From Blastocatellia bacterium (lineage in GTDB: Bacteria > Acidobacteriota > Blastocatellia > UBA7656 > JADIYM01): DNA of 64,000 nucleotides. The stretch spans positions 1 to 64,000 of the forward strand of contig JAJTWZ010000005.1 of the NCBI GenBank assembly GCA_021463145.1, given 5' to 3'. Positions 15,963 through 60,874 of this stretch are shown in pieces; positions within the stretch are counted from its first letter, which is position 1; every line of letters begins with the position of its first letter. Under the pieces are notes generated by a model. It was not told the origin of the DNA. It searched no databases and worked only from the letters and a program-made list of their open reading frames with translations. The position numbers and the translations under genes were made by a program.

Positions 15963-17831
15963 ATGATTGTCAGACGTCCCCGTCTCCGCGCCGGCTCCGT
16001 GTCCGTACGAACAATGCTGGCTATCGGCGCTGCTTTTTCCATCTGCATCGGCCTGGTTCCGGCAATGGCGCAGAATGGAGGGGCGAAACCGGTCGCTCAC
16101 GACCGATCCGTGCGGATCATCCAGGGGCACCCGAAGGTCGTCAAGCTCAAGGGCAAGGCCTCGTCTGGCGGTCAGAAAGACATGACCTTCGAGGTCACCG
16201 TCTTTCCGCAGCACGGCACACTGACGGCGGTCGACAGCGACAGGGGCCGGGTCACCTACACTCCGGATGCGGATTTCAGCGGCGAGGACCGGTTCAGCTT
16301 TACGGTCAACGACGGCGTCGCGACCAGCGATCCGGGAGTCGTGATCCTCACCGTCTACAAGCGCGGCGAAGCGCCGACTGGCCCGATGCTTACGGCGGAC
16401 GAAGTCCGGACTATCGTGCAGAACGCGGCGATTCGCCTGGCCGACTCGAGCGCCGTCATCGCGATCGTCGATCGCGCGGGCCGGCCTCTGGCGGTATACA
16501 AACGGACCGGCGCCAACAAGAATGACGTCGAACGCGCGCTCGCGCTTGCCCGGACCGGCGGGTTCTTCAGCAACGACGCCGCGCCGCTCTCGTCGCGCAC
16601 CGTCCGTACGCTTGGCGGCGTCCACTTTCCCCCGGGGATCCGCGACACCGGACCGTCGGACCTTTACGGTATCGAACTCACAAACCGGGGCTGCGATTTC
16701 AACGTCACCTACAATCCTGGCAAGGAATACCCCGTCTACACGAATCTCGACGGCACGGGCCCGGGTCTCGGAATCGGCACCGGAAAGCCCGACTTCTTCG
16801 ACAACGAGGGAAGACTCGTGGATCCGGGTGGCTTCCCGATATACAAGAACGGCCGCGTTGCAGGCGGAATCGGCGTCACGGTGGCTCCTCCCGGCAATTT
16901 CGGAACGCAGGGCGTCAACCCGCAGGTGACCGCAGCGGAATTCGCATCGTTCCAGGCGTCGCTCTCGCTGGGCGGACCGCGACTGCCGCTTCCTCCCCCG
17001 GGGCGCGTAATACTTGGCGGCATCGAGTTACCGTTCTCTCCCTTCCTCGATGCATTCGAAAAGGGCGAGCAGATTCCCACGCCCGCCGGTGCCGGTGCCG
17101 GTTCGGGAACGTTCGATCCCAACCGTTTCGTTTTCGGCCCGGTCGCGGGAGGCTTCGCTGCCGACGGGTGGCTCGTCGGGCCGCTCTCGGGTTCACGCCT
17201 TTCGGCGCAGCAGGTCAACCAGATCGTGATGAACGCCTTCAACGAGGCAAAGCGGACGCGAGCGGCGATCCGGTTGCCGCTCGGGTCGCCTACGTCGATG
17301 GTCATTGCGGTCGGAGACCTTGACGGCACAATTCTCGGCGTGTTCCGGATGCAGGACTCGACGATCTTCTCGATCGACGTGGCGATTACCAAAGCCCGCA
17401 ACGTGGTCTGGTTCAGCACGGAAGGCTCGCGCGACCTTCCCGGCGTGCCCCACGGAACCGCGATCACGAACCTCACCCTCTACTACGCCGGACAGCCGTT
17501 CTTCCCGATCGGCATCAACAACAGCGATCCGGGGCCGTTCTACGATCTCTTCCTCCAGGACGCGGCAAATCCGTGCTCTCAGGGTAGCCAGCCGGCCAAT
17601 CCGAATCAGAGCGGCATCGTATGGTTCCCGGGCTCCGCGCCCCTTTACACCGGAGGTCAGATAGTCGGAGGACTGGGCGTGTCGGGCGACGGCGTGACGC
17701 AAGACGACGTCGTAACGTTCGCCGGCACGCAGGGCTACGAGGCACCGCCCGAAATAAGGGCCGACCAGGTGATCATCCGGGGCATCCGCCTTCCGTACCT
17801 CAAGTTCAATCGGAACCCGAACGTACCGTAG
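15963..17831 (+). CDS. Exported GlcG/HbpS-like (DUF336) double-domain protein
   Basis: A 622-residue exported protein with a signal peptide ending near AMAQ (residue ~37). Residues ~45-130 form an Ig/cadherin-like module (FPQHGTLTAVDSDRGRVTYTPDADFSGEDRFSFTVNDG). Two GlcG/HbpS-like modules follow, at about 140-320 (starting LTADEVRTIVQNAAIRLAD, with GGIGVTV) and 415-610 (starting LSAQQVNQIVMNAF, with GGLGVSGDGVTQDD). HbpS and GlcG relatives bind heme or small molecules; whether this one does is inference from the fold and from its position as first gene of a cytochrome cluster. GTGAGG precedes the ATG, and the next gene begins 12 bases after the stop. Confidence 0.8.
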   Translation: MIVRRPRLRAGSVSVRTMLAIGAAFSICIGLVPAMAQNGGAKPVAHDRSVRIIQGHPKVVKLKGKASSGGQKDMTFEVTVFPQHGTLTAVDSDRGRVTYTPDADFSGEDRFSFTVNDGVATSDPGVVILTVYKRGEAPTGPMLTADEVRTIVQNAAIRLADSSAVIAIVDRAGRPLAVYKRTGANKNDVERALALARTGGFFSNDAAPLSSRTVRTLGGVHFPPGIRDTGPSDLYGIELTNRGCDFNVTYNPGKEYPVYTNLDGTGPGLGIGTGKPDFFDNEGRLVDPGGFPIYKNGRVAGGIGVTVAPPGNFGTQGVNPQVTAAEFASFQASLSLGGPRLPLPPPGRVILGGIELPFSPFLDAFEKGEQIPTPAGAGAGSGTFDPNRFVFGPVAGGFAADGWLVGPLSGSRLSAQQVNQIVMNAFNEAKRTRAAIRLPLGSPTSMVIAVGDLDGTILGVFRMQDSTIFSIDVAITKARNVVWFSTEGSRDLPGVPHGTAITNLTLYYAGQPFFPIGINNSDPGPFYDLFLQDAANPCSQGSQPANPNQSGIVWFPGSAPLYTGGQIVGGLGVSGDGVTQDDVVTFAGTQGYEAPPEIRADQVIIRGIRLPYLKFNRNPNVP

Positions 17832-17843
17832 GACCGAACCCCC

Positions 17844-19250
17844 ATGCTGACCCGGCACTCAACAGTACTGTTCGTCACCGCCGTCCTTGCCGGTGGCGCC
17901 TTCACGCTCGCCCAGACGAAGGCGGGCGATCCTCCCGCGGCGAAGCCGGCCGCCGCCCCGCAGGCGAAGCCCGCTCCGAAGCCCATTCCGCCAAAACCGG
18001 GGGTGCCGAGCAAGGGCCCCGGCGTGCGATTCCTTCACGAACACCATTCCGGGCCGACGCCAGTGCCGCGCAAGAAGGGCGAGACTCGCGACCTGACTTG
18101 CGCCACCTGCCACGCTTCTTCCGTCGCGCAGCCCGACACGAACCGTTACCCCGGTCCGGACCTGGTCAAGTACCCCGAGGCGGCGAAGTTCGCCCTGGAC
18201 GGCGACAGGATCAACAAGCTCGGCTTCGCGAAATCGCATTCGGCGTGCATCGAGTGCCACACGGAAATCGCGCCGGGTTCGAACCGCATGTGCGGAATGT
18301 GCCATCAGTCTCTTCAGAAACTGCGCGTTTTCCCGAACCCTGACGTGGAGTTGTCTCAATTCGCCGACCGGTACTCGCACAAGGCACACAAGGACTACTT
18401 CGACGGCAATCCCGAGCCGTCGAAGGTCTCCGCCTCGCACCGGGTGACCGACACTTCCTTTTTCTCGATCGGCTACAGCATGCCTGCAGCGGTCGAGAAG
18501 GGGCTGCGCTGTTCGGAGTGCCACTTCATCGACACCAAGGGACAGAAGATGAAGCTGCCGCAGCACGACGGATGCTTCGTCTGCCACGCAAAGCCCAGGA
18601 TCGTTCCGGAGAAGTCCGATACCTTCTGGAACAAATGCACCGGCTGTCACGCGAACATGGAGGCAAACAAGCCGACTGTCGACGCGACGCTCAAGCCGCC
18701 AAAGGACGCCGACCACGCCATCGCGGCGCTTACGATGCCGTTGCGCTACGTCGTAACGCCGACAGGCGCTGCCAATCCGGCTTTCAGGCACACAACGCAC
18801 GGCACGATGACACCCGACACGGGCAAGAGCGCCGGCAAGGCGCTGGAGGGCAAGGCATCGTGTCTCTTCTGTCACACTTCGACGGAACGTGCTTCCAACC
18901 GGACCCAGATGAACGCGTTCGCGGTCCGAAAGACGGACCCGCAGCTGCAGCAACCTCCCGCGACGGCGTGCGTCTCGTGCCACGTCCACGCAAAGCAGAT
19001 GAAGCCGGCAGCACCGGGCAGGACAGCACAATGTCTCGCGTGCCACACCAGGGCCGACGCCGCGAAGCCCGTTCCGGCAAATCATCTGCTCGCCGAGGAA
19101 CCGAAGCCGGCCGCAAAGCCCGACGAGACGGCTGCGCCACCGAAACCTGCGGCTACCGGCGCGAAACCGGATGCGGCAAAGCCTGCCGAGAAGGAGCCGG
19201 CTCCACAACCAAAACCTCCAAACACGCGCGAAACGCACCTCGTGCCGTGA
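17844..19250 (+). CDS. Nine-heme periplasmic c-type cytochrome
   Basis: A 468-residue exported protein (signal MLTRHSTVLFVTAVLAGGAF) with nine CxxCH heme-attachment motifs between about residues 86 and 400: CATCH, CIECH, CGMCH, CSECH, CFVCH, CTGCH, CLFCH, CVSCH and CLACH. Additional histidines in HEHHSG, HKAH and HTTHG could be distal ligands. The C-terminal ~55 residues are Lys/Pro/Ala-rich and low-complexity, possibly a tether or cell-wall/peptidoglycan-interacting tail. It is presumably an electron-transfer protein in the periplasm. No catalytic family is recognised. It sits second in the operon, 12 bases after the DUF336 gene. Confidence 0.9.
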   Translation: MLTRHSTVLFVTAVLAGGAFTLAQTKAGDPPAAKPAAAPQAKPAPKPIPPKPGVPSKGPGVRFLHEHHSGPTPVPRKKGETRDLTCATCHASSVAQPDTNRYPGPDLVKYPEAAKFALDGDRINKLGFAKSHSACIECHTEIAPGSNRMCGMCHQSLQKLRVFPNPDVELSQFADRYSHKAHKDYFDGNPEPSKVSASHRVTDTSFFSIGYSMPAAVEKGLRCSECHFIDTKGQKMKLPQHDGCFVCHAKPRIVPEKSDTFWNKCTGCHANMEANKPTVDATLKPPKDADHAIAALTMPLRYVVTPTGAANPAFRHTTHGTMTPDTGKSAGKALEGKASCLFCHTSTERASNRTQMNAFAVRKTDPQLQQPPATACVSCHVHAKQMKPAAPGRTAQCLACHTRADAAKPVPANHLLAEEPKPAAKPDETAAPPKPAATGAKPDAAKPAEKEPAPQPKPPNTRETHLVP

Positions 19251-19287: not shown

Positions 19288-20175
19288 ATGAGCCGAATGC
19301 CAAAATTCTTCGCCCTCGCGCTCCTGCTCGGATCGGCAGGATGGCTCGCCATCGCAACTCGAGCTCAGTCGGGGACTCAACCCGCGCCGGCCGGCACGGG
19401 CGGACGCGCGTGGGACTACAGCTCGTTCAAGCACGCGGATCACGATGCCGCGCTACTGTCTACCGGGCAAAAGGCTATCTCCTGCGACGTGTGCCACAAG
19501 CGCGAGCAGTCTGGCACACAGCTCTTCTATCCGGGTCACGATGCGTGTATCCAGTGTCACGTTCCTCAGTTCACGACGCCGTCGTTCCAGATCTGCGCGG
19601 TCTGCCACACCGACGTGGCGAAAGAAGGAAAGGCCCTGAAGCCGTTCCCGGCCGAGCGCAAGGATTACGGAGTGCGGTTCGATGGAGCGAAGGACAAGAG
19701 CCAGCACCAGGTACACATGGACGTGCCGATGCCGGACGGCTCGAAAGTGACTTGCGTCGTCTGCCACGAGAATCGAGGCGCGAACCAGGCGTTTCCGGCT
19801 CACGCCGAGTGCTACGTCTGCCACACTCCTGGGGCGAACTCCGCCGCTGCGACGCCCGAACTGTCGAACTGCGCGGTCTGCCATCCTGGCCCGGCCGAAC
19901 CGAACAGCGAGATGAAGCGGCTCATTGCAACGCGCCGTAACGACGCGTTGCCCTACCGCTTCCGGCACCTCGATCACACGCGGGCGCTTGGCAACTCGTG
20001 CGTGGAATGCCATCGCGTCACACAGGACATTCACGTGGTCTCGTCCGGAACGAAGGAACATCGAGCCCGGCCGGCATTCAACTGCTACGAATGCCATCGG
20101 GGCGGTGGGAGGTCGAAAATAACGGAAACCTCCTGCGGCGCCTGCCACGGCATCATGGTTTTCCCGCCACTGTAG
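19288..20175 (+). CDS. Nine-heme periplasmic c-type cytochrome
   Basis: A 295-residue exported protein (signal FFALALLLGSAGWLAIATRAQ) with nine CxxCH motifs from residue ~65 to ~287: CDVCH, CIQCH, CAVCH, CVVCH, CYVCH, CAVCH, CVECH, CYECH and CGACH. Spacing and added histidines (FKHADHDA, FRHLDHT) resemble the FxHxxH pattern of cytochrome c3/c7-type modules, where such histidines are distal heme ligands. The ATG at 19288 precedes the signal peptide; the longer reading crosses the previous gene's end. It is 37 bases after the other nine-heme gene and is probably co-transcribed. Confidence 0.9.
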   Translation: MSRMPKFFALALLLGSAGWLAIATRAQSGTQPAPAGTGGRAWDYSSFKHADHDAALLSTGQKAISCDVCHKREQSGTQLFYPGHDACIQCHVPQFTTPSFQICAVCHTDVAKEGKALKPFPAERKDYGVRFDGAKDKSQHQVHMDVPMPDGSKVTCVVCHENRGANQAFPAHAECYVCHTPGANSAAATPELSNCAVCHPGPAEPNSEMKRLIATRRNDALPYRFRHLDHTRALGNSCVECHRVTQDIHVVSSGTKEHRARPAFNCYECHRGGGRSKITETSCGACHGIMVFPPL

Positions 20176-20496: not shown

Positions 20497-21024
20497 ATGA
20501 AATTCAAGGCCGCCTTCTGTGCTTGCACGCTCGTCCTATTAGCCGGGCTGTCCGTCCACTTCGCCATTTCGACATCGGCGTCGGCCCCCCTGCAGGCCAA
20601 GACCGACTACTCGAAGGGGTATCCGCCAAAGGCGCCAGGTGCCTCGCACCTGGATCTGCCCAACCCGATCCCACTCGGTGACCCGAAGACCAGCGATCAG
20701 TGGGGCCTTGACGACAAGTGGGGGATTTCGAACCTCACCCACCAGAACCATTCCGAGAAGCACAAAATTTCGTGCGCAACGTGCCACCATACTAACGGCA
20801 AGGAGAACGCCGCCCTCACCGAAGACGTCGAGCGCTGCGTCAACTGCCACAAGGCCGAAGGCGACGAAAAGAATCCGACCAATGCTGACGGTGAGGAACT
20901 GAACGTGAAGAACGCCTTCCACCTTGGCGTCGCGGGCTGCATCAACTGCCACGAAGCCGAGATGAAGAAGAATCCGAGTTCCACCGCCGTGACCTCCTGC
21001 GCCGGCTGTCATCAGTCGAAGTAA
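20497..21024 (+). CDS. Tetraheme cytochrome c3/c7-like protein
   Basis: A 175-residue exported protein (hydrophobic signal AAFCACTLVLLAGLSVHFAI) with four CxxCH motifs in the C-terminal half: CATCH, CVNCH, CINCH and CAGCH. The LTHQNHSEKHKISC segment supplies candidate distal histidines as in class III cytochromes c. Such small tetraheme proteins usually shuttle electrons in the periplasm between inner- and outer-membrane complexes. The ATG is at 20497, with GGAG upstream. It precedes the cytochrome maturation genes and is separated from them by a strong hairpin. Confidence 0.9.
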   Translation: MKFKAAFCACTLVLLAGLSVHFAISTSASAPLQAKTDYSKGYPPKAPGASHLDLPNPIPLGDPKTSDQWGLDDKWGISNLTHQNHSEKHKISCATCHHTNGKENAALTEDVERCVNCHKAEGDEKNPTNADGEELNVKNAFHLGVAGCINCHEAEMKKNPSSTAVTSCAGCHQSK

Positions 21025-21100: not shown

Positions 21101-22666
21101 ATGACATCGTCCAGGAATCCGGAGTTCGACACCCAGACCGAGCCGCAGCCGAAAGCCGCCGCGGCGGGCAGGATCACGAGCGCGATAGATCGTTTTCTTC
21201 GCCTGCTCAGTTCCGTGCCCTTCGGTATTGCGCTGCTGATGTTGCTCATCCTCATGAGCATGACCGGCATGCTGATCCTGCAGACGAACGTCGACGGGTT
21301 CGCCGAATACTACGCGGCGCTCCCACCGTCGAAGCAGATCATGTACACCGATCCGATCGTCCGCATCCTGCAGAAATGGACGGGTGCGGATTTGCGCGGC
21401 GTCAACATCCTTTCACTCGTCGACATTTACCGATCGTGGGTTTTCCTCGGGCTCCTCGCGGTCCTCAGTCTCAACATCGTTCTCGCGTCGATCGATCACT
21501 TTCCGGGAGCGTGGCGTTACGTCCGCAGGAAGAAGCTCACGGCGACGAAGCAATACGCGAAGACGCGCGACTTCAATTCGATCATTGCCAGCGACGCCTC
21601 GGATGGCGAACCGCTGCAGATCGCGGCGGCGTGCCGCGCGAACGGACTCGAGCCCACGATCACCTACGAGCCGTCGAGAACTACCGTTTTCGCCGAGCGC
21701 AACGCCTGGAATCGTCTGGGCGCCTACTTCGTCCACGTCGGGTTGCTCGTGATCTTCCTGGCCGGCTTCGTTACCTCGAAATGGTCGCACAACGGCAGCA
21801 TTACTCTGCAGCCTGGCGGCGAAACGGCCACGATGCAGGGGATTTCACACGACCTCGACCAGGTAAAGGTCGATCAATTCGCATTGCCCTTTCTCGTCGA
21901 GTGCACGGACATTCAGCAGACGCTCATCCGTCCCGAGGGCGGACTCGAGAGCAACAACACGGTCGATTGGTTCACCCGCGTGCGCATCACCGACCGCGAG
22001 CTCGGTCAGGTGCTTGAAGGCGACGTTCACATGAACAGGCCGCTCGACTACCGCGGCTATCGATTCTTCCAGTCGAGCTATCAGCCGGTCTCGCGCGCAC
22101 GCAGCGTTACCCTCGACGTAACGACTTCCGGCGGCGCAACCGAGACCGTCAGTCTGATGCGGGGCGGTGTCGCGACGCTGGGCGACGGAACCAGGATCCG
22201 TTTCGCGGACTTTCTTGGCAATGCCCGCGGAGGGCCCGGCGCCGAGGATTACAACGACCCCGTCGCGAAGATTCAGGTACTGCCCGCCAACGCCGGCGAG
22301 AACGCCGTGCCAACGACTATCGAAGCGCGCCCGGCCGCAGCGACGGCAGGCGCGGCTACGGCGCCGGTACAAGCGGTGCTGACCGGGTTCGAGAAAGTTG
22401 GCGCGAGTCACACTCTGTCGGTTCAGTACGACCCGGGCGCCTGGATTTTCTACATCGGGTCGGTGCTGTTGATCGCCGCTCTTGCTTCGGTATTTTTTGC
22501 GTCGCATCAGCGCGTGTGGATTGTCATGGATCGCGATTCCGACGGCGAGAGGAAACTCTTCGTCGGCGGACACACGAATCGGAACCGTCCGGCTTTCGGC
22601 CGGCGTTTCGCGGAACTCGTTGCGGCGCTCGGGGGCCCGTCGACGGTTCGCGAGGAGAACTCATGA
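21101..22666 (+). CDS. resB: ResB-like System II cytochrome c maturation protein
   Basis: A 521-residue ResB/Ccs1 family membrane protein. It has transmembrane segments near residues 37-58 (GIALLMLLILMSMTGMLIL), 108-130, 208-225 (GAYFVHVGLLVIFLAGFV) and 448-468, with a large periplasmic domain between the last two. With CcsA it forms the System II complex that exports heme and attaches it to CxxCH apocytochromes. This fits the many cytochromes next to it. Its stop codon overlaps the ccsA start (ATGA), so the two are translationally coupled. The N-terminal ~30 residues are polar and cytoplasmic. Confidence 0.9.
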   Translation: MTSSRNPEFDTQTEPQPKAAAAGRITSAIDRFLRLLSSVPFGIALLMLLILMSMTGMLILQTNVDGFAEYYAALPPSKQIMYTDPIVRILQKWTGADLRGVNILSLVDIYRSWVFLGLLAVLSLNIVLASIDHFPGAWRYVRRKKLTATKQYAKTRDFNSIIASDASDGEPLQIAAACRANGLEPTITYEPSRTTVFAERNAWNRLGAYFVHVGLLVIFLAGFVTSKWSHNGSITLQPGGETATMQGISHDLDQVKVDQFALPFLVECTDIQQTLIRPEGGLESNNTVDWFTRVRITDRELGQVLEGDVHMNRPLDYRGYRFFQSSYQPVSRARSVTLDVTTSGGATETVSLMRGGVATLGDGTRIRFADFLGNARGGPGAEDYNDPVAKIQVLPANAGENAVPTTIEARPAAATAGAATAPVQAVLTGFEKVGASHTLSVQYDPGAWIFYIGSVLLIAALASVFFASHQRVWIVMDRDSDGERKLFVGGHTNRNRPAFGRRFAELVAALGGPSTVREENS

Positions 22667-24216
22667 GCACCATCAGTCCAGTCGACGCCAGGGCTTTCCA
22701 GAGCCGCAATCTCGGTCCGGCGTCGCGCCTCTTCGAATGGGCGCCAGTCGCCGTTCCGCTTCTCGCGGCTGTCGCCATAGTTTTTGCGCGAATCCAGTTG
22801 GGCGAGTCGAAGCACTTCACCTACGACGCCGCTCTGATCGTGCTTGCTCTGGTCTGTTATCTGTTCGCCGCGATCATCGGCCTGCTGGAGCTCTACGCCG
22901 ACCGGCAGATGCTCGGTCGGTGGGGCCTCTGGATGGCGGCGTCCGGCCTTGGTTTCAACGCAGCAGCGTGGGGAACGCGCTGGGTCGCCGCCGGAGACCG
23001 CGAAGGCTGGATTCGATGGGCGTTCCGTTACGTGCCTTTCGCCAATCTTTACGACCTGTCGATCGCCTTTGCATTGGGCGCGGCGCTTGCGACTGTCATC
23101 GTCTGCAGAAAGAAGGAAGCCCGGATGGTGATGGGCGTTTCGATGCTCATGTCGGCGCTCATCGTGCTGCTCGCGATTTTCCTCGGCCGCGAATTCATCG
23201 ACCTGCCGCCGGTGCTCGACAGTTACTGGCGTCCGATCCACGTCGGAATCGCTTCGATCAGCTACGGCGTGGTCCTGGTCTGCTTCAGCATCGCGACGCT
23301 ATACCTGATCAAGGACGGCTTCAAGATCGAGGTGATGGCCGTCTTCGTGGCGTTGCTCGGCGCCGGGATCTACGCGTTCATCAATCGCATGGACCTGCTC
23401 TTCAGCGGAAAGTATTCGATGAGCGTCATCATGACCGACGCCGTCAGCGGCCAGACTGCGCCGCTTCCGTTGCGGGCAACCATTCCTCTTGCGGGGCCGC
23501 TGATGATAGGAGCGCTGATCCTGCTGGTCGGGGCGCTTTTGATTCTGGTGCGCGACCTCTATGTCGAGACGAGCGCGAACCGGAAGAACGCCTTCGCCGT
23601 GCTCTGGGGCTCGTTCGCTCTGCAGGTAGCTTCGATCGGCGCGGTCCTGCTCCAGATGCGCGCGCTCAAAGGGAACGTGGCGCCTGCCATCGACGTGGCG
23701 TCGCAGATCTCGTACCCGAAAGTGGCCGAGTGGCTCGGAGGCGCTCCCGCGAGTAGAGCCACGGAGTTCCTGGCTGCAAACAATTCGAGCCTGAGCATCA
23801 CCACCAATTCGAACCCCGTCGAGCTCGGTGCGCTGTTCACGCTCGCGGCCCTCACCGGTCTCGTGCTCCTGTTCGGCTTCAGAACCGAGCGCGTCGTCGA
23901 GCGATTGCCCTCGCTCGACCGGCTCGACGACCTCATGTACAAGACTGGCGCGATCGCGTTCATCGGGCTCGCCATGCTGCTCATCACCGGCGCCGTCTGG
24001 GCAAACGAATCCTGGGGCCGCTATTGGGGATGGGATTCGAAGGAGACTGGCGCGCTCGTGGCGTGGCTTGCGTACGCGGGGTTCCTGCACACGCGGATCG
24101 CGCACGGCTGGACCGGCCGCCGCAGCGCCTATTTCGCGATCGTGGGCTTCCTGCTCGTGATCTTCACCTACCTCGGCGTCAGCTATCTGCTGCCGGGACT
24201 GCATTCCTACGCGTGA
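22663..24216 (+). CDS. ccsA: CcsA/ResC-like cytochrome c synthase subunit
   Basis: A 517-residue polytopic membrane protein of the CcmC/CcsA heme-handling family. Near the C-terminus it carries the tryptophan-rich WANESWGRYWGWDSKETGA motif (WWD-type heme-binding loop), with conserved histidines before and after it (HVGIASISYG, HTRIAHGW). The N-terminal half adds several extra membrane helices, so it is longer than many CcsA proteins. The ATG at 22663 overlaps the resB stop by four bases, and the longer in-frame reading upstream is inside resB and rejected. It works with ResB on heme delivery. Confidence 0.9.
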   Translation: MSTISPVDARAFQSRNLGPASRLFEWAPVAVPLLAAVAIVFARIQLGESKHFTYDAALIVLALVCYLFAAIIGLLELYADRQMLGRWGLWMAASGLGFNAAAWGTRWVAAGDREGWIRWAFRYVPFANLYDLSIAFALGAALATVIVCRKKEARMVMGVSMLMSALIVLLAIFLGREFIDLPPVLDSYWRPIHVGIASISYGVVLVCFSIATLYLIKDGFKIEVMAVFVALLGAGIYAFINRMDLLFSGKYSMSVIMTDAVSGQTAPLPLRATIPLAGPLMIGALILLVGALLILVRDLYVETSANRKNAFAVLWGSFALQVASIGAVLLQMRALKGNVAPAIDVASQISYPKVAEWLGGAPASRATEFLAANNSSLSITTNSNPVELGALFTLAALTGLVLLFGFRTERVVERLPSLDRLDDLMYKTGAIAFIGLAMLLITGAVWANESWGRYWGWDSKETGALVAWLAYAGFLHTRIAHGWTGRRSAYFAIVGFLLVIFTYLGVSYLLPGLHSYA

Positions 24217-24228: not shown

Positions 24229-25035
24229 ATGAGTGACGAAAATGCGAGCCAGGTGACGCATCTCGAGAACGAACTGCTCAAGTCGCGACTCGAGGCGCAA
24301 AAGAAAGACAAACTCGTCCATCTGCTCATCGGACTCGTCGCGGGACTCGCCGTCGGGTTCTATGGGGCGAACTGGATGAATACGAGCACGGGCAACGCAG
24401 CACGAGCCGCGGGGTCCGCGGTGGCCACGGCCGCACCGGCTGACGAGAACCACGATGGCCACAATCATCCTCCCGGAGAACATCCGTCTGGCGACGGTGG
24501 AGCCGCGATGCCCGAGGTGCAGGCAAAGCTGAAGGCCGCGGAGGACGATCCATCGAATTTCGTCGCTCAGATGGACGCGGCGGCCATGTTTCACCGGATC
24601 AACAACAACGACAAGGCGATCTACTTCCTGAAACGGGCCTACGCTCTCCGTCCGGACGACTACGACGCATTGCTGATCCTTGCGAACAAGACGTTCGACG
24701 CGGGCAGGTATGCCGACGCAAAGCCGTTGTACGAAAAGGCCCTCGCGATGCGGCCCGACGTGGTGGACGTGCGGACGGACCTGGGCACGACGCTCTTCCA
24801 GCTGGGTGACCTGGACAAGGCGATCGGTATGTTCGAGGCATCGCTCAAGCAGGATCCGAAGCACGAGTACACGCTGCAGAACCTGGCGGTTGTCGCTATT
24901 CAGAAAGGCGATACTGCAAAGGCCGAGGACGCGCTGCTGCGACTGGCGGCGGTCAACGGCGGGAACCCGTCGCTCGGACCGCTCCGCAAGGACCTCGACA
25001 CGTTGAAGACGACGGGCAAAATCCCGACGCATTGA
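24229..25035 (+). CDS. Membrane-anchored TPR protein, possible cytochrome-assembly factor
   Basis: A 268-residue protein with an N-terminal coiled-coil-like polar segment, one transmembrane helix at about residues 28-46 (LLIGLVAGLAVGFYGANW), a His/Gly/Pro-rich linker (DENHDGHNHPPGEHPSGDGG, a possible metal-binding stretch) and three to four TPR repeats (for example YFLKRAYALRPDDYDALL, AKPLYEKALAMRPDVVDVR). TPR proteins such as CcmI and NrfG hold apocytochromes for heme attachment, and the position 12 bases after ccsA supports a similar role. It starts with GGCGATAG, a weak ribosome binding site, so it is likely translated as part of the operon. Confidence 0.85.
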   Translation: MSDENASQVTHLENELLKSRLEAQKKDKLVHLLIGLVAGLAVGFYGANWMNTSTGNAARAAGSAVATAAPADENHDGHNHPPGEHPSGDGGAAMPEVQAKLKAAEDDPSNFVAQMDAAAMFHRINNNDKAIYFLKRAYALRPDDYDALLILANKTFDAGRYADAKPLYEKALAMRPDVVDVRTDLGTTLFQLGDLDKAIGMFEASLKQDPKHEYTLQNLAVVAIQKGDTAKAEDALLRLAAVNGGNPSLGPLRKDLDTLKTTGKIPTH

Positions 25036-25506: not shown

Positions 25507-27981
25507 ATGCCCCAAGAACTTGAGCAACGGCGTGCCGTCCTCGAGGCGATTCAAAGTGTCGCCGCGATCAAGGACATCACGGCGCAGCACGATGGACACT
25601 TCGAGCACGAGATCGACCTCGAAGTCATCGTCTACGGGCGGAATTACAACGGCAAGAAAGTTGGTCCCTACGTCCGCCTGCTGGTCTACAGCGACGGCGA
25701 GGAAGTCATGCGCGAGGGCGAGTGGGGCGGCAACACCTTCTATGTCGTCGTCGAGGGCCAGGCCGACATCTTCGTCACCACCGAGGGACGCGAGACGCAC
25801 GTCGCACAGATCTCCGCCGGCGACATCCTCGGCGAGATGTCGATCCTTGCCGGCGTCCCCCGATCCGCTACCGTGCGCGCGCCCGCCGGCGGCACCGTCA
25901 AGATGCTCGAGGTGCAGCGGCCGGCGCTCCGGTTGCTGCGAAAGCTGCCGCACTTCGGCGAGGCCCTAGACCGGTCCTACCGGAATCACGGCCGCAGCCA
26001 GATCATCCAGGTACTAAACTCGGTCAGCCACCTCGCACCCGAGACCGTCAGGCAGATCGAAGCGATCTCGCAGTTTCGGGTCCTGGGCAAGGGTCACGTG
26101 CTCTTCCACCCGGGCGAACCGGTCAAACGCGTCTATGTAGTCAAGTCCGGCTGGCTGCGCCTCTCGCCTCAGCAGAAGACATCGATGCTCGTCGCGCCGT
26201 CTGGCGACGGGAAGATCTCCTGGGGCGACCGTCCGTCGTGGGATCTGCCGTCTCCCGACAGCTACTTCGGACCGTCGAACGCTTTCGGTCTGGATGGCGT
26301 CATGGCCGACTCTCAGTGGCAGCACACTGGGGTACTCCTTGGTCGAACCGAACTGCTTGAAGTTTCGATCGCCGAGTTGCGCAATCATCCCGAGCTCATC
26401 GAGATACTCGGCGGCTCGCTTCGATCCCTCAACATCAAGAGCGGCACCGTGAAGCAGGCGACCCCGGCGCCGATCGCCGCCTCTCAGCGTGAGCTAATCG
26501 CGACGGGCGTTATCGACGGCACGAACCTGCTGCTGATGGACATGGAGCTGTGCGTGCGTTGCGGCAACTGCTCACTGGCGTGCCAGCACCAGCACGGGAA
26601 CTCCCGGCTCATGAGGCGCGGCATCTCGATTACGCGGCCGAAACGCCTGACGAAGAACGCTCCAATCCAGTACCTGCTCAATCCGTCCGTCTGCATGCAC
26701 TGCAAGGATCCCGAATGCATGACGGGTTGTCCGACTGGCGCGATAAGCCGCTACACCGGCGGCTACGTGGACATCACCAAGGAGACCTGCATCGGGTGCG
26801 GAGACTGCGCGACGCAGTGCCCGTACGACGCCATCTCGCTCATTGCGCGGCGCGGGAAGCCGCCAGCTGCCACGTCGCTGATATCGGATTGGTTCAGCAT
26901 CGCGGCTCCCCCGGCCCCTCCGTCGGTCGAGGAAGTCGACGACCTCGTGGCGGTCAAGTGCAACCTCTGCTCCAACACGCCGCTCAATCCGAAGGGCGCT
27001 GCTACCCGAGCGTACAGCTGCGAAGAGAACTGCCCGACCGGCGCGCTGCTCCGCGTGGACCCGGCGGCTTACTTCTCCGAGATCGGGAACATCCAGGGCG
27101 TCGTCTTCCGCGACGAAACGCATATCGTTTCGAAACACACGTCGCACGTCGACCCGAAGAAGCGGATGCTTCACGGCCTTGGCGTGCTCTCGACGGCCGC
27201 TCTTGTCGCTCTCAGCCTCGCATCGCTGTGGCGGTTCGGACGCGACCTGCCGATCGTGGGTTCGTGGCTGAACTTCTATTGGGCGACGGGAATCGTCGGA
27301 CTCGTCGCAATAGCGGTCGTGATGCTCTACCCGGTGCGCCGGCAGATCTTCCGCAAGCGCGTCGTTCCGCTTCGGTACTGGATGCTGACGCACGCATATG
27401 CAGGCGTCATCGCCGGCGTCCTCCTGCTGATGCACGGAGGCACGCGTGGCGGCGGCGTGCTTACGACCACCCTCATGATCACGTTCGATCTCGTGATCCT
27501 GACGGGATTGTGGGGCATCGCTACCTATTACATCGCGCCCCGGATACTTACCCGGATCGAGGAACAGCCGCTTCTGATCGACGATCTGCAGCTCCGCCGC
27601 AGCGAGTTGATGAACGAGATAGCGGACACGATCGCGACGGCATCCGAGGCAACTCGCGCGGCCATCGAGAAGAAGGTACTGCCGCACATCCTTTCGTTCG
27701 AGTTTCTCGCCCGGCAGATTTTCCGTCGCGAGCATCTGCGCGATCTGATCGACTCGACGCGCCAGCACTACGCGGCTCTTGCGCAGACGTTGCCTGAAGA
27801 GGAGCGCACCCGCTTCCTGGATGACGTCGAGAAGGCCGCCATGATGCGACGAGTCGACGCGCTGATTTACCTCCATCGCGCCCTCAAGATGTGGCTGGCG
27901 CCGCACGTGCTGACCACTTCGTTGATGCTCGCGTTGATGATCGTCCACATCGTCCAGGTGATTTACTTTGCCGTGAGGTAA
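25507..27981 (+). CDS. Fusion: two cNMP-binding domains, polyferredoxin, membrane domain
   Basis: An 824-residue protein. Residues ~60-150 and ~195-310 are cyclic-nucleotide-binding (CRP-type) domains; the first has GGNTFYVVVEGQADIFV and GDILGEMSILAGVPRSATV, close to the phosphate-binding cassette. Residues ~348-525 carry four [4Fe-4S] cysteine groups like DmsB/HybA electron-transfer subunits: CVRCGNCSLAC, CMHCKDPECMTGCP, CIGCGDCATQCP and CNLC..CEENCP. Residues ~555-824 hold about five transmembrane helices with membrane histidines (LTHAYAG, LLLMHGG, LMIVHIVQV) that could ligate b-type heme. No DNA-binding domain follows the cNMP domains. It probably moves electrons between quinone or cytochromes and cytoplasmic carriers, with ligand control. 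The ATG at 25507 has GGGAGG upstream. Confidence 0.85.
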   Translation: MPQELEQRRAVLEAIQSVAAIKDITAQHDGHFEHEIDLEVIVYGRNYNGKKVGPYVRLLVYSDGEEVMREGEWGGNTFYVVVEGQADIFVTTEGRETHVAQISAGDILGEMSILAGVPRSATVRAPAGGTVKMLEVQRPALRLLRKLPHFGEALDRSYRNHGRSQIIQVLNSVSHLAPETVRQIEAISQFRVLGKGHVLFHPGEPVKRVYVVKSGWLRLSPQQKTSMLVAPSGDGKISWGDRPSWDLPSPDSYFGPSNAFGLDGVMADSQWQHTGVLLGRTELLEVSIAELRNHPELIEILGGSLRSLNIKSGTVKQATPAPIAASQRELIATGVIDGTNLLLMDMELCVRCGNCSLACQHQHGNSRLMRRGISITRPKRLTKNAPIQYLLNPSVCMHCKDPECMTGCPTGAISRYTGGYVDITKETCIGCGDCATQCPYDAISLIARRGKPPAATSLISDWFSIAAPPAPPSVEEVDDLVAVKCNLCSNTPLNPKGAATRAYSCEENCPTGALLRVDPAAYFSEIGNIQGVVFRDETHIVSKHTSHVDPKKRMLHGLGVLSTAALVALSLASLWRFGRDLPIVGSWLNFYWATGIVGLVAIAVVMLYPVRRQIFRKRVVPLRYWMLTHAYAGVIAGVLLLMHGGTRGGGVLTTTLMITFDLVILTGLWGIATYYIAPRILTRIEEQPLLIDDLQLRRSELMNEIADTIATASEATRAAIEKKVLPHILSFEFLARQIFRREHLRDLIDSTRQHYAALAQTLPEEERTRFLDDVEKAAMMRRVDALIYLHRALKMWLAPHVLTTSLMLALMIVHIVQVIYFAVR

Positions 27982-27990: not shown

Positions 27991-29481
27991 ATGGCGACGT
28001 CCAAGTTCATCATCATTCGGCGCGACCTGGAGGTCGATCCTACCGCGGTCGAGGGCGATGGCCTTTCGATCGGGCGCCTGCTCGCCAACGACGTGACGCT
28101 CAATCACCCGTCGGTGTCGCGCACGCACCTGGGTATCAGGCAGATCTCCGGCGACTTCTGGGTCACGAATCTTTCGCAAGGCAACGGTACGATCCTCAAC
28201 GGCGCTATCGTCGAGAGCGCGCCGCTTGCGGCCGGCGACATCCTTCAGGTTGGGCCGTTCTACGTCCACGTTGCCTTTCCTGGCGATGTGCTCGAGTTGA
28301 CGATTGACTTGAGCATGAATCCGATGGCGGCCGAAGGAGGCGGGACCGGCCTGCTCCCATCGGCCGACGCCTCATCGCCTGGAGCGGCGGCGGCCGCGCC
28401 GGCAGATCCGGCGCACTCGGCGCAGGCCGCCAGGCCGTCGCAGGGCGGCACCCGCCGGCTCACCAACAAGACCGGAATGCTCACCGGCATGCTCGCTGCG
28501 CCCGAGGAATTCGCGCTGAAGGTCTTCTGGGACAAGCGCAAGCGGGACGCCGGCAAGGTGGCCGAGCGCACGCCACTCAAACCGAACCTCATGAAGGGCC
28601 GCCTCGGAAAGGCCAGATTCAACTGGCGGTCGACGTCGGACCTTCGCAGGCCGTGGGCAACTAGTCTGTTCGTCTGGGGCGCGATCCTGGTGACGGCCGC
28701 ATCCGTCGTGTCTGCGTTCGCGTTCACGGACTTCTACGCGCCGGGCCCCCTCGCGACCGCTCACGTGCGCGATTCGCTCGCACACCCGGACGCCTTAGTG
28801 GCCGTAGCGGTGCAACCCAACGCAAACTCCTGCACCACTTGTCACAGCCTGACGCAGTCGATGGACTCTCGCTGCTCGCAGTGCCACACGACCACCGCCT
28901 TCACTTCCATATCGTCGGAAGAGCATATGAATGCTGGCGTCACGTGCGGCGATTGCCACGGCAAGGAGCACCGCGGCGATGTCTTCGCGAAGATCGGCGC
29001 CGCCGACTCGTGCGTTGCCTGCCACCGCGAAGGCTACGCCTACTGGAGCCCGACCCTGAAGAAGTCAATCGCTCTCGCGGTTCCGCACGGAGGCTCGTCG
29101 CTCGGGTATCCCGTTGCGGACGGAAAGTGGACCTGGCCCGGTTGGTCCGAAGAGCGCTGGTCGTCGCGTTCGTTGCCGAAGAAGGCGGCCGATTACGACA
29201 TCAAGGGGCAGTTCCACATCATTCACGTGGCGAACGGCGGACCCAGCCAGCGAGTCGCCTGCTCGGATTGTCATACGAAGGGCTTCGACACGGCTTCGAT
29301 ACTGGCCGGTGTCCGCGAGTCCTGCTCGGCGTGTCACGCCCAGAGTTTCGGCGGCAAGTCAGACGCGCAACAGGCTGCGGTCAAGGTTCAATGCATGTCC
29401 TGCCACGGTCAGCACGGGGGCGAGAAGGCGTCGCTTGCGGTGCGCCAGTCGCAGCGCATTCACGCCGAAAAGGCGAAGTAG
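27991..29481 (+). CDS. Fusion: FHA domain, transmembrane helix, seven-heme cytochrome
   Basis: A 496-residue protein. Residues ~25-90 form an FHA phosphopeptide-binding domain with the classical signature SIGR, SRTHLG and NGTILNG. A low-complexity Ala/Pro/Ser linker and basic segment follow, then one transmembrane helix near residues 224-246 (LFVWGAILVTAASVVSAFAF). The C-terminal part (residues ~275-475) has seven CxxCH motifs: CTTCH, CSQCH, CGDCH, CVACH, CSDCH, CSACH and CMSCH. The expected topology is FHA in the cytoplasm and hemes in the periplasm, joining phosphothreonine recognition to electron transfer. It follows the polyferredoxin fusion by nine bases, so they are surely one operon. 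No kinase gene is in the window. Confidence 0.88.
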   Translation: MATSKFIIIRRDLEVDPTAVEGDGLSIGRLLANDVTLNHPSVSRTHLGIRQISGDFWVTNLSQGNGTILNGAIVESAPLAAGDILQVGPFYVHVAFPGDVLELTIDLSMNPMAAEGGGTGLLPSADASSPGAAAAAPADPAHSAQAARPSQGGTRRLTNKTGMLTGMLAAPEEFALKVFWDKRKRDAGKVAERTPLKPNLMKGRLGKARFNWRSTSDLRRPWATSLFVWGAILVTAASVVSAFAFTDFYAPGPLATAHVRDSLAHPDALVAVAVQPNANSCTTCHSLTQSMDSRCSQCHTTTAFTSISSEEHMNAGVTCGDCHGKEHRGDVFAKIGAADSCVACHREGYAYWSPTLKKSIALAVPHGGSSLGYPVADGKWTWPGWSEERWSSRSLPKKAADYDIKGQFHIIHVANGGPSQRVACSDCHTKGFDTASILAGVRESCSACHAQSFGGKSDAQQAAVKVQCMSCHGQHGGEKASLAVRQSQRIHAEKAK

Positions 29482-29545: not shown

Positions 29546-31225
29546 ATGAGAAAGTCGCAACTCCTCGTCACGCTCCTGATGCTCGTCGTGCTTGCGATGG
29601 CGGGTATCGCGTCGCGTCTCGCCGTAAGCTCATTGGGCGCAGTGCCCTGGTTTGGATGGATAGGCCTCGTCACAATGATGGTGGCAATGGGGTTTGCGTT
29701 CATTATTTTCGACGAGTACCGCGAGCGTGGCCGCGTCACGCACATTATCCGCGAGGCCGAACTTGCCGCCGCCGAACGGGCGCGCGCCGCCGCCGAAGCC
29801 GGTCATTCGGCGGATACGATCTCGTCGCTTCACAGCGACGGTCCGTCTTATCCGCATCCCGTGATCAACACCGCGACGTGCATCGGGTGCCACGCTTGCG
29901 TCGATGCCTGCCCTCATGACGTTCTGGCGATCGTCAACGGTGTCTCTACGCCCATCGCGCTCGACCAATGCATGGAGGACACGAGTTGCCAGGTCGAGTG
30001 CCCCACGAGCCCGAAGTCCTGCATCGTCGTGAACACGACCAAGAAGATCCCCGAGCGCAAGGTGCCGAAGCGCGACAACCGGTTCATGACGAACGTTCCG
30101 GGGATCTACCTGATCGGTGACGTCTCGGGCGTTCCGCTCATCAAGAACGCCATCAACGAGGGCGGCTCGGTGGTCGACTTCATCGCCGAGGAGTTGAAGG
30201 CGAAGCCTCCCTCGGGTGCTGCGGAGTACGACACCGTCATCGTCGGCGCCGGGCCCGGCGGACTCTCGGCAACTGCGATGGCCAGGCAGCGGGGACTTCG
30301 TTACCTCACGATCGAGCAGGACAAGGTCGTCGCGACGATCCAGGCCTATCCGGCTGGAAAGTACGTGTTCTTCAAGCCCGACACGGTCGAGACGAAAGGT
30401 GGCATCGAGTTGCCGGGTATCGGAAACTCGAAGGAAGCGATGATCGGTTCGTGGCTCGACACGATGAAGCAGCTCGACCTCAAGATCAACGAATACGAGA
30501 CGGTGAAGAGCGTGAAGACCGACGGCGACGTTTTCGTGGTCCGAAGCGACTCGGACAGGACGAAGCAGAGCGCCGAGTACAGAACCCGGACGGTTGTCAT
30601 CGCCGTAGGAGGACGCGGCACGCCAATGCGCCTGCGCGTCGAGGGAGAGGATCTGAAACTCACGGTAACGCCAAGCGCCCCGGTCATGGCTCCGTTCTGC
30701 GTAAAATGCGGCCTGCCCCGAACGACGGAGGATCCAGCCTGCGCCTCGTGCGGGAGTGCGTATCCGACGACGGTTCCGCCCCCGTTCGAAGACGAGAAGG
30801 TCAAGTACCGGCTGAGCGATCCGAACCTCTTCAAGGGCAAGCATTGCATCGTCGTAGGCGCCGGCAACTCGTCGATCGAGGCGGCGGTGGATCTGGCGGC
30901 CTACCGCTCGGAGGACGGCACTCAGATCGTCGGCTGGCGGGACAACATCGTAACGCTCGTCATCCGCAGCGACTTCAAGGGCGATCTGAAACTTGGCAAC
31001 AAGATGCTCTGTTACGAGTGCATCGACGAAGGCAGGATTCGGGTGCACTTCAGGAAGACGATCAAGGAGATCCGCCCTGACGAGGTCATGTTGATGAACG
31101 CGCGCGAACGCGACGCGTCGAAGGCCAAGGCGACCGATACCATCCAGAACGATTACGTCTTCGCCCTGATCGGGGGCGACAAGCCGACGAAGTTCCTCGA
31201 GAGCATGGGAATCCAGATCGGCTAG
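29546..31225 (+). CDS. Membrane ferredoxin-flavoprotein oxidoreductase (YpdA/TrxB-like)
   Basis: A 559-residue protein. Two N-terminal transmembrane helices (residues ~6-28 and ~35-57) are followed by a ferredoxin domain with CIGCHACVDACP and CMEDTSCQVECP (residues ~112-155). A Rossmann FAD/NAD domain starts at VIVGAGPGGLSATAMA (~231) and a second dinucleotide motif lies at VVGAGNSSIEAAVDLAA (~433). Between them is a rubredoxin/zinc-ribbon-like insertion, CVKCG..CASCG (~388-405). The AYPAGKYVFFKPDT stretch resembles YpdA-type reductases; no TrxB-style CxxC redox pair is seen. It may pass electrons between NAD(P)H and the polyferredoxin fusion. ATG at 29546 has AAGG upstream. It is the last gene of the locus. 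Confidence 0.82.
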   Translation: MRKSQLLVTLLMLVVLAMAGIASRLAVSSLGAVPWFGWIGLVTMMVAMGFAFIIFDEYRERGRVTHIIREAELAAAERARAAAEAGHSADTISSLHSDGPSYPHPVINTATCIGCHACVDACPHDVLAIVNGVSTPIALDQCMEDTSCQVECPTSPKSCIVVNTTKKIPERKVPKRDNRFMTNVPGIYLIGDVSGVPLIKNAINEGGSVVDFIAEELKAKPPSGAAEYDTVIVGAGPGGLSATAMARQRGLRYLTIEQDKVVATIQAYPAGKYVFFKPDTVETKGGIELPGIGNSKEAMIGSWLDTMKQLDLKINEYETVKSVKTDGDVFVVRSDSDRTKQSAEYRTRTVVIAVGGRGTPMRLRVEGEDLKLTVTPSAPVMAPFCVKCGLPRTTEDPACASCGSAYPTTVPPPFEDEKVKYRLSDPNLFKGKHCIVVGAGNSSIEAAVDLAAYRSEDGTQIVGWRDNIVTLVIRSDFKGDLKLGNKMLCYECIDEGRIRVHFRKTIKEIRPDEVMLMNARERDASKAKATDTIQNDYVFALIGGDKPTKFLESMGIQIG

Positions 31226-32448: not shown

Positions 32449-32455
32449 ATCGAGG

Positions 32456-32461
32456 ACTATA
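32456..32461 (-). promoter_or_regulatory. -10 box placing the UbiA-like start site at its ATG
   Basis: TATAGT on the minus strand (within TATATAGT) is followed by seven bases and the ATG. This supports a leaderless transcript and the chosen start. Confidence 0.45.
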
Positions 32462-32521
32462 TAGTTCCCCACGCCCGTGCGGCGCACCCCGTCGGACGAA
32501 ACGGGCAGCGTTTCGGATCCG

Positions 32522-32775: not shown

Positions 32776-32842
32776 CATTGCTCCCAGCTAAGACGCAACT
32801 TCTTCCGCGCTCAACTCGATAATGGGCCGGAGGGAGCAAGAC

Positions 32843-33295: not shown

Positions 33296-33300
33296 AGGTT

Positions 33301-33411: not shown

Positions 33412-33416
33412 CGGAT

Positions 33417-33660: not shown

Positions 33661-33694
33661 GAGGCCAACCCATCCCCGGCCGGGATATCGAAAG

Positions 33695-33729: not shown

Positions 33730-33733
33730 AGTC

Positions 33734-54177: not shown

Positions 54178-57100
54178 TCACGCTGCGCGACGATCAACGC
54201 CCTGCCGGCGGCGCCGGCGAAGGAGAAGCCCCATTGGCAGCAGAAGCGGGAGAAAATCGTATGCGGTGCCGAAAGGCTTCGAAGCCCGAACCGGACCGCT
54301 CCCGGCCGGGACCGAAGCCTGCTCTTCGGGATCGTCCAGCGTCTGGCCGGCGGCTTGCGCCGGTCCCGGCGGAGTGTCGCTGACGGTGTAGGGCTTTCCG
54401 GTCACCGAACTGATGTACAGCCGGCGCATCTCGGCCAGGTTGAACGGACGGGCGCCCCGGCGTCCGAATACCGCGAGCTGGTTGCCGCTCTCGTCGACCG
54501 CCCGATCCCGGTCGAGTCCTTCGGAGACCTGGACCGCAGGGCCGCGAGTCTTCTTCGTCGCGATGAGCCGCGGCGTAAGCGGGGGTGCGTAACCGTAGAT
54601 GCCTGGCGTGTCTTCGCTCGACGTGAGCTGAACGACTCGCAGGCCGTTCTTTCCGTCGGCCACGTAGGCGAACATGCTGTTGTTCGTCATGCCGATCTTC
54701 ACGTCTCGCGTGTCGTTCATTTCGCCTTCGGCGTTGAAGAAGAGCCCGGGCATCCACGAAGGAGCCGATGGTCTGGTCGGCGATTCGATGTCGACTATTG
54801 CCATTCCCTGAGCGCCCGACGCGACGAACGCATAGGTACGCGAGATGTAGACGTTCCTCGCGTCGGCGATCTTCACGACGGCGTCGTCGAGCAGTTGCGG
54901 GTCGGTCATATCGGTCAGGTCCACGACCCGCAGGCCGTCGGCGCAAGCGACGAAGGCGTAGCGGAACTGGATCGCGACCGATCGCGGCTCGCGAATCGGC
55001 AGCACCTTGATCACCTTCGGATCGGGACGCAGTTGTGCGTCGTAGCGGGCGATGTCGAGGATCACGAGTCCCTTGTCGGTGCACATGTAAGCGTACTGCC
55101 CCGCCAGGATGATGTTCGACGCCCCATCAAGCACGCCGTCGGGATTGAAATGATCCTTCCCGTCCGCGAATTCCTGCCGATGAAGGAAATTGTTCTCGGG
55201 ATCGCCGTCCAGCAGTGTGGCCGCCACGGTCATCACGAGGCCTTCCTTCTTGTCCGAGATATAAAGGAACGCGTAGAGAGGATGGATCGGTTGCGGGTCA
55301 TATCCAACCGCGGGCAATGGCTCTCCAGCCATGCGCGCAAGCCGCATCTTGATGGCATCCGCCGCGTTCACCCGATAGACGGCTTCGCCGTTCTCGGGCA
55401 GGTGGCGGCGGTAGTGATGGCTGAGCGGCGTCTTCGTGATCTCGAGAAGGCTCGCCGTCGGGTCCACACCGAGGGTCGTGGGCGATGCCACCGCCGTCGC
55501 GTACTCGGTGTCGACGTAGAGCCGTTGACCGATCGGAGAAACGATCGACGAGGAGATGCGCTGGGCGAACAGTTTGTCGTCGACGCGCGAGATATCGTAG
55601 ACGCGCATGCCTCCCTTGCCGTTCGCGACGTAGACGTACTCTCCGCGCACCTGCAGGCCCAGCGATTCGTTGCCGATGCCAGGACGGTGCGAGTACGACT
55701 CGCCGAGCTTGCGGCCGCCGTCCACGAAGTCGTCGTACTCCTCGGGGAACGCCTGCTTGTGCAGCGAACTGCCGAAGACCGCTTGCGGTTCGGAGCGCTC
55801 CGTGACCGCGATAGCCTCGAAGCCACCGCCCTCCTCCGCCACGTAGGCGAGACGGCCGACGAAATTCGCAGCATTGGCTCCCTGCAGCGTCAACTGAGCA
55901 AGCACCGCGTTGTTGTCGTTCTCCTTCGAGACGTGGCAATCGCTGCAGAGCTTCGTCTCGCCCTTTCCTCGAACCGTATGCGGTACGTAAGAGCTGAAAG
56001 CCTGCCCTGAATACCCCTCGGCCGAGATCGTCTGCTGCTGGGAGTAGAACCACTCGCGGTTGATGGTCTGGGAACTGACGAGGATTGCGCACGACGAACG
56101 GATCGGTCCGACCCGGTTGCCAGAGACGACGCCGTCACGTCCGAGCATGTAGACGTCGTCGCGCAGCGTCTGGAAGTTGTAGTTCGTCCAGTTACGGCTG
56201 TCGGTGCCCTCGTTGTGGAGCATCGGCTCGCGCTTGTTGGCGCGCATCGGGAGGTGACAGCCGAAGCACGCGGTCGTCCACGACGTGTGGCACGCAAAGC
56301 AGGTCATCTCGCTGTCGGGATGCGCAACCTTGTCGTCGCTCGCAGTCGGGTCGCCCCACGTCTGGTTGTCGATCTGAACCGTCTTCGCGTACGAGGAAAG
56401 TTCGTTGTAGTCGTCCGGCCGCTTCTCGTTCTTCACGACCGTGTCACGCGTCTGTTTGACTCGCCACCACTTGGCCGGATCCGTGTAGGAAGCCTGGATG
56501 ATTTCGCCCTTGTAGAGCTGGACGTTCGTCGTGTTGCCGTTCCGCGGAATCTTCTCGCCCGGCTTCACGTCCTTGGCGAGCCGTTGGAAGATCGGAACCT
56601 CGCGATCCTTCCCGTCGACCTTGAACTTCGTCTTCATGCGGGTCAGGTCGCGGCCTCGCTTGCCGGCCTTGTCGGTCTCTGCCGCCGGGCCCGAAGTCCG
56701 GAGCGTCGCAACCTTGTCCATCGTCCCGTGGCAGTCGATGCAATCGATCTCGATCGCCGCGCGCACTTCGGAATGCAGATTGCCCGTGCCGTGGCCATCG
56801 CCCGAGAAGTGACAGTCCACGCACTGCATTCCCATCTCGAGATGGATGTCCTGCATGTGCACCGGGACTCCGTCCTTGAGCATCGGCAGCCCCGTAGCCG
56901 GGTCCGCTTCGGGATACATGGCCGCCGCGAGGGACTCGCCGTCCACCTTGGGCACGATCTTGCCACTGTGGTCGAGGTAGTTGCCGTGCCGGTCAACCTT
57001 GAAGACCGCCCGATAGACCCAGCCGTGACCGTGGAAGTCGCCGAACTGCGTCTTGGTCAGGTTCTTGTTGATCTCGCCACCCGGCTTGCCGACGTCCGCG

Positions 57101-60642: not shown

Positions 60643-60874
60643 CGTCGTGATCCTCGGGTTCGCGAGAGTCAGTCGTCTGGAATGCACCGGTCCGTGGCGA
60701 GTGCCAGGTGGCTCGACAAAATGTGAATGCGTCCGAAGAGATTGCCTCCGCGGTGCGCGTTCCGATCTGGGGTGACGAAAACACGAGGCCTGGCTTCGGT
60801 GGGTACGAAGCGGGGCGACGTTGAATGCAGCTTAAAAAGCGCCGAAGTAACCGTATTGGTTAGAACGTGGGATG

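Follow-up and report, generated by a model that had tools for sequence, protein, structure and literature searches.

The window analyzed here, a 64,000-nt stretch of contig JAJTWZ010000005.1 from a Blastocatellia bacterium (a soil member of the Acidobacteriota), encodes a protein in which an FHA domain, a linker, a single transmembrane (TM) helix and a heptahaem cytochrome c follow one another. We propose that an electron-transfer complex of the inner membrane includes this protein, probably as its heptahaem subunit, which is held by a single helix with its haems in the periplasm and whose FHA domain acts as a docking or regulatory module. The adjacent redox genes are assigned to the same complex, a connection overlooked in an earlier note on this DNA, as was the fusion of one of them to the FHA-heptahaem protein in many relatives. 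At the sequence level, the proposal is carried by cofactor ligand sites, a one-sided topology, gene linkage and gene fusions. The genes concerned are listed in Table 1.

Table 1. Genes of the window assigned to or discussed together with the FHA-heptahaem protein.
Feature	Coordinates	Strand	Size and basis
Exported protein with Ig-like and two HbpS-like (haem-binding type) domains	15963..17831	+	PF03928 7.7e-18
Nonahaem cytochrome 1	17844..19250	+	9 CxxCH; PF22113 3.6e-11
Nonahaem cytochrome 2	19288..20175	+	9 CxxCH; PF14522 2.3e-11; also in relatives
Tetrahaem cytochrome c3-like protein	20497..21024	+	175 aa; PF02085 1.4e-10
ResB, cytochrome c biogenesis system II	21101..22666	+	PF05140 9.9e-58
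CcsB/CcsA cytochrome c synthase subunit	22663..24216	+	TIGR03144 3e-57, above cut-off; start inferred from ResB overlap
Membrane-anchored TPR protein	24229..25035	+	PF14559; close to ResB/CcsB in relatives too
cNMP-binding x2 - four [4Fe-4S] - five-TM b-dihaem domain (predicted)	25507..27981	+	824 aa; Pfam, homologues
FHA - linker - TM - heptahaem cytochrome c	27991..29481	+	496 aa; Pfam, homologue alignment
TM2 - two [4Fe-4S] - FAD/NAD(P) pyridine-nucleotide oxidoreductase (OXR)	29546..31225	+	559 aa; Pfam
LVIVD-repeat multihaem cytochrome	54178..58503	-	9 CxxCH; PF08309 7.8e-23
Exported protein, putative outer-membrane beta-barrel	58546..60687	-	713 aa; neighbourhood in relatives; C-terminal aromatic residue

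The FHA-heptahaem reading frame runs without interruption from an ATG start. Its N-terminal part matches PF00498 (FHA; residues 26-88, E = 4.9e-13; score 49.8 bits, curated cut-off 20.7) and contains the pocket motifs SIGR, SRTHLG and NGTILNG, with R29, S43, R44, H46, N65, T67 and N70 all intact. The TM helix (approximately residues 226-244) separates this domain from the haem part, where the seven CxxCH motifs (residues 281, 295, 319, 341, 424, 445, and 468) take up 14 of the 14 cysteines of the protein, and where PF14537 and PF14522 (cytochrome c3/c7 type) score above cut-off in the C-terminal half. The combination of an FHA signature, one TM helix and seven CxxCH in one frame, as described in the earlier note, is thus confirmed by Pfam, motif and reading-frame checks. 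Structure prediction, which the note had suggested for the FHA binding loop, models the FHA domain with high confidence (AlphaFold, pLDDT about 89-96), but the haem part, modelled mostly at pLDDT 40-85 and with no haems, is too weak for haem placement. Behind the FHA domain, a juxtamembrane cytoplasmic block with the pattern FWDKRKREAGK..PLxP...GKAQFNWxPTxDL (28510-28656, residues ~174-222) is strongly conserved and has no Pfam match; it is possibly a contact site for the FeS partner described below.

Homologues were searched for in 98 relative genomes and in a named scan of GTDB genomes. The full-length ones belong to Acidobacteriota, and to the class Blastocatellia wherever the record names a class; in an even sample of the phylum, the gene is present in 20 of 396 genomes, all 20 of them in the window's own class. 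In this search for proteins combining FHA with multihaem parts, which the earlier note had recommended, we found 58 distinct homologues with FHA domain and haems in the same frame and the same order, the number of independent ones being lower than 58 since the sequences are akin to one another. The seven CxxCH and seven further His (residues 258, 312, 327, 366, 409, 412, and 475 in window numbering) are kept in 58/58, and by ligand counting, we infer that these seven proximal and seven distal His would meet the need of seven bis-His haems. The two findings that the note had named as fatal to its idea, a frameshift joining two genes and homologues in which the two parts are always separate, are both at odds with these one-frame homologues. 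The sole split case (locus L061) is a single frameshift within the linker in one metagenome-assembled genome, and was ruled out as a genuine pair of separate FHA and haem genes.

Wherever the contig allows, the gene directly upstream encodes a protein that combines a pair of cNMP-binding domains with four [4Fe-4S] sites and a C-terminal membrane domain, and this gene is present in 46 of the 49 relative genomes having either gene. A start at 25285 (898-aa ORF) was rejected as a start artefact, the conserved Met being that at 25507. The cNMP-binding family PF00027 matches with E = 1.9e-24, and Fer4 families match as well. In the first cNMP site, the phosphate-binding cassette is retained (GEM..LAG.PR.AT, with E, R and T invariant), which makes ligand binding likely. 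The four FeS sites comprise 16 invariant Cys and resemble those of ArrB/PsrB/DmsB-type subunits; the AlphaFold model of this part is too weak for cluster placement. Hydropathy places five TM helices at residues 554-572, 583-601, 624-642, 650-668, and 805-823. Two WX3HX13H motifs, at 625 and 796, occur in 32/32 homologues and in both outgroups, and are predicted to hold two b haems, while helix 4 carries a [ST]GxxG motif (TGLWG in the window, SGVFG and SGVVG in Sphingobium and Emticicia). A PDB search with the membrane domain returned chance matches only.

Downstream, the flavoprotein OXR matches PF13738 (4e-31), PF07992 (1.4e-23) and Fer4; its NAD(P) site is suggested by family resemblance. 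It is fused to the FHA-heptahaem protein in 18 homologues (FHA-TM-7 haems-TM-FeS-FAD), which form a single clade in the tree (support 96/86), so that one fusion or one fission accounts for them. An apparent eighth CxxCH in these fused proteins was rejected as a haem site; it is the CIGCH of a [4Fe-4S] site. Split OXR has two TM helices and fused OXR exactly one; since haem attachment to c-type cytochromes takes place outside, this places both FHA and FAD in the cytoplasm and the haems in the periplasm. OXR is absent from the genomes, where tested, of a Pyrinomonadaceae-type clade of 10 homologues, and the search of six of these genomes gave only generic thioredoxin-reductase-like matches. (Clade names of this kind, such as Chloracidobacteriaceae-type, are taken from named loci of the same groups.) Like YpdA and the thioredoxin reductases, OXR has FAD and NAD(P)-type dinucleotide folds; unlike them, it has extra TM helices, two [4Fe-4S] sites and, across its homologues, no redox CxxC that is conserved apart from those in the FeS sites. 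A role as thioredoxin/bacillithiol-disulfide reductase was rejected, the YpdA score being 133 bits against a cut-off of 339.9. The protein also looks circularly permuted, in that the C-terminal FAD-contact segment of thioredoxin reductase (TNVPGIYLIGDVSG...) precedes the first FAD-binding fold, an order that is seen in the Emticicia relative as well. A CxxCG...CxxCG insertion resembling a zinc ribbon or rubredoxin (about 30695-30770, residues ~385-405) varies among homologues and is missing in Emticicia.

In the path that we envisage, the FAD of OXR would be reduced in the cytoplasm, with NAD(P)H as the most likely donor; from the FAD, electrons would pass via its two [4Fe-4S] clusters to the four of the cNMP-binding protein, then to the two b haems in the membrane domain of the latter, and finally to the seven c haems. 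From these, soluble tetra- and nonahaem cytochromes would take them onward, probably to the LVIVD multihaem cytochrome and its putative beta-barrel partner at the outer membrane. The FHA domain lies on the cytoplasmic face, next to the conserved cNMP site. The occupancy of the cofactor sites, the order of the path and its direction are those that we infer.

The gene neighbourhood fits such a conduit in several respects. The system II genes for haem attachment share the gene run upstream on the same strand. Homologues of the tetrahaem protein adjoin the system in five loci (L033, L059, L044, L047, and L061), and those of the HbpS-like protein occur at the same locus in Pyrinomonadaceae and on a Sphingobium plasmid. 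Homologues of the LVIVD cytochrome adjoin the system in L033, L059, L041, L061, L102, and Sphingobium, and this cytochrome is the probable outer part of the same conduit; in the window, however, it and the putative barrel lie 23 kb off on the opposite strand, which speaks against the assignment. In L033, a single run on the + strand consists of the end of the barrel gene, LVIVD 9-haem, 4-haem, 8-haem, and 9-haem cytochromes, cNMP-FeS-b, and FHA-heptahaem-OXR. In five Pyrinomonadaceae-type loci and in Sphingobium, the LVIVD cytochrome has a homologue of the 713-aa protein beside it; for this protein we propose an outer-membrane barrel, given a C-terminal Y/F in 7/7 (the window protein and six homologues), an aromatic ending typical of such barrels, together with a weak amphipathicity signal.

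Beyond Acidobacteriota, the search covered plasmids. The window FHA-haem protein as a tblastn query against them gave nothing useful; the partner proteins as queries led to twelve Sphingobium plasmids, and likewise to Emticicia. On plasmid pMSHV of S. herbicidovorans (cluster around 806-817 kb), which provides a cultured host with a plasmid-borne copy, OXR-cNMP-cNMP-FeS form one protein, followed by a separate 296-aa b-type membrane protein and an FHA-TM-decahaem protein. Profile comparison (hhalign) of the Sphingobium and Acidobacteriota families supports homology for every piece, with probabilities of 98.9% for the FHA-haem proteins (E 1.2e-17), 98.3% for the membrane domain and 99.95% for cNMP-FeS. 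Emticicia plasmid pEMTOL02 encodes the membrane protein (97.8%), OXR (30% identity) and multihaem proteins of very large size; cNMP and FHA modules are both absent from the system there. From this comparison, the core is OXR, the b dihaem and a multihaem cytochrome, to which cNMP and FHA are add-on modules; that different lineages have different fusions is good evidence that the parts work together. Beside the Emticicia membrane protein and OXR, a repeat cytochrome with 40 CxxCH (L104, 8062-11067) recalls the multihaem wires of PCC3. In another family of the class (genome G026, L102, 6157-10460), an LVIVD cytochrome is accompanied by a cNMP-FeS protein and by a TM-decahaem in which no FHA is recognisable, possibly an FHA-less form of the system. 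A Cupriavidus match (L105) was set aside as a FeS/cytochrome b neighbourhood with no multihaem genes.

There are several readings of how the FHA domain acts. One of them falls just short of being probable in our view: the only job of the FHA fold is to tether the heptahaem subunit, independently of phosphorylation, to its cytoplasmic partners, the cNMP-FeS or OXR parts. It draws on the uneven fate of the phosphopeptide pocket (R29, S43, R44, N65, T67, and N70), which is complete in 7/7 of the window clade and in 8/9 of one fused clade (f2), yet in only 7/21 of the Pyrinomonadaceae-type loci with OXR, in 0/9 of the Chloracidobacteriaceae-type fusions, where R29 is replaced in 9/9, and in 0/10 of the clade without OXR, where T67 (the Thr of NGT) is lost in 10/10. 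In Sphingobium, the domain still has the FHA fold but has lost the Ser/Arg/Asn set, and PF16697 (the YscD cytoplasmic model; 3.6e-6) is a better match than the FHA model; a dock of this kind would resemble YscD-type secretion proteins, whose cytoplasmic part has a non-canonical FHA fold. The FHA-TM-haem architecture thus stays where the pocket decays, and the conserved juxtamembrane block behind the domain also suits a dock. What a pure dock leaves aside is the retention of every pocket residue in the window clade and in f2, which argues for selection on phosphopeptide binding there.

Docking of this kind is the main rival of a phospho-gated switch, in which a Ser/Thr kinase would phosphorylate either a partner protein or some tail of the complex, and binding of the phosphothreonine by FHA would toggle electron export in the manner of GarA and OdhI. 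Among solved FHA domains, those of these two phospho-switch regulators come closest in both sequence profile and fold; they are, however, soluble and have no haem or membrane part, and no N-terminal phospho-switch tail was seen in the window protein. The search for Ser/Thr kinases, another follow-up proposed in the earlier note, yielded about 70 kinase-domain matches in the genome (G000, 5.3 Mb), which means that the host has phosphothreonine signalling at its disposal; none of the genes seen in the operon encodes a kinase. The genome also has 31 FHA and two class III cyclase matches. With the cNMP sensor in the same complex and the intact window pocket on one side, and the loss of pocket residues in several lineages on the other, we regard the switch as possible but distinctly less than probable. 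Of the note's suggestion that a phosphorylation signal could control or position a redox protein across the membrane, what holds is a single spanning protein with FHA inside and haems outside, according to the fused and split homologues; control by phosphorylation is a viable hypothesis for this protein. Across the family, the first role of FHA is probably assembly or docking, and in the window lineage the domain may in addition bind a phosphothreonine on a partner, as its pocket sequence would allow. In this reading, a docking module has retained phosphothreonine binding in certain lineages only, that of the window included.

The control of multihaem electron-export systems is generally attributed to gene expression and redox potential. 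With a cNMP sensor and an FHA domain within the electron path, second-messenger or kinase signalling would be linked directly to membrane electron flow, and cell signalling may thus touch electron export directly. In its fullest form, this would be a trans-envelope conduit gated post-translationally both by cNMP, at the FeS/b-haem subunit, and by phosphothreonine, at the FHA domain, so that electron export could be switched on and off with no change in gene expression; we consider such dual gating somewhat unlikely.

The membrane domain resembles the inner-membrane proteins of the PCC3 and PCC4 clusters, which are themselves predictions in He et al. (2017; PMC5566968) and are compared here by motif pattern. 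Shared features are the five TM helices, of which helices 3 and 5 each carry a WX3HX13H motif, and the multihaem neighbours, the four His having been read in that work as ligands of two b haems; on helix 4, the SGXXG of the PCC3/PCC4 type has as its counterpart in the window a small-GxxG with Thr in first place (TGLWG); PCC4 subgroup II likewise has a pfam13247 FeS gene by its inner-membrane protein (PMC5566968). In contrast to the PCC3/PCC4 proteins as presented there, our system has its membrane domain in one protein with two cNMP domains and four FeS sites, the tethered multihaem protein carries FHA, and the unit includes a pyridine-nucleotide flavoprotein; the main text of PMC5566968 makes no mention of FHA or cyclic nucleotides. 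The comparison offers these inner-membrane proteins of unassigned function a candidate cytoplasmic partner, a FeS/FAD pyridine-nucleotide oxidoreductase.

It also bears on the direction of flow, as the PCC3/PCC4 inner-membrane proteins with the same motifs are proposed to be quinone-active in the electron-uptake direction (PMC5566968). By analogy, the b dihaem might exchange electrons with quinone, or periplasmic donors might reduce NAD(P)+ through the complex. As the clade of 10 homologues lacks OXR, the electron source is not fixed; quinol is a possible one. In most lineages, however, the heptahaem subunit has the FAD/NAD(P) module either fused to it or next to it, and four additional [4Fe-4S] clusters would link the cytoplasm to the b domain. 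A quinol-linked or inward-running complex is therefore unlikely in our estimate, and outward flow from the cytoplasm is preferred. As for an artefact, i.e., a frameshift, misassembly or chance CxxCH linking an FHA gene to a cytochrome gene, we found no support for one (L061 illustrates what a single frameshift looks like), and its probability is close to nil given 58 one-frame homologues with invariant haem ligands, at most one CxxCH per shuffled protein (mean 0.013, 5000 shuffles), and the FHA-TM-decahaem proteins encoded on complete Sphingobium plasmids too.

The Hmc, Tmc, Qrc and Dsr complexes of sulfate reducers combine a periplasmic multihaem c, a membrane subunit and cytoplasmic FeS proteins. 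Our system shares this working principle, and differs from them in its cNMP, FHA and NAD(P)-type flavoprotein parts; no NrfD-like subunit was seen among the neighbour genes. The nonahaem cytochromes match HmcA weakly, missing the equivalog cut-off (49.1 vs. 400 bits); all matches of this kind lie under the curated thresholds.

The earlier note was not aware of a described mechanism for this architecture; the architecture itself has been described in part. Our literature search, which covered freely readable main texts, found no description of it together with its partners. However, a "Forkhead-associated protein" with 10 CXXCH is listed under "Other" as Gallionellaceae cluster 403, present in 27 of 87 genomes (PMC10734462, Table 1). 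It likewise joins an FHA annotation and many CXXCH in one protein, and the listing comes without partner genes, topology or mechanism. Going by this description, cluster 403 is likely homologous to the FHA-decahaem protein of Sphingobium.

Two further features of the window are recorded here. The LVIVD cytochrome weakly resembles ExtM/ExtN of selenite/tellurite reduction operons. The region 32200-33900 is repetitive (PLRGRGS/RSAVAD-type translations) around a small transposase-like ORF (32822-33295), similar to REP/RAYT arrays.
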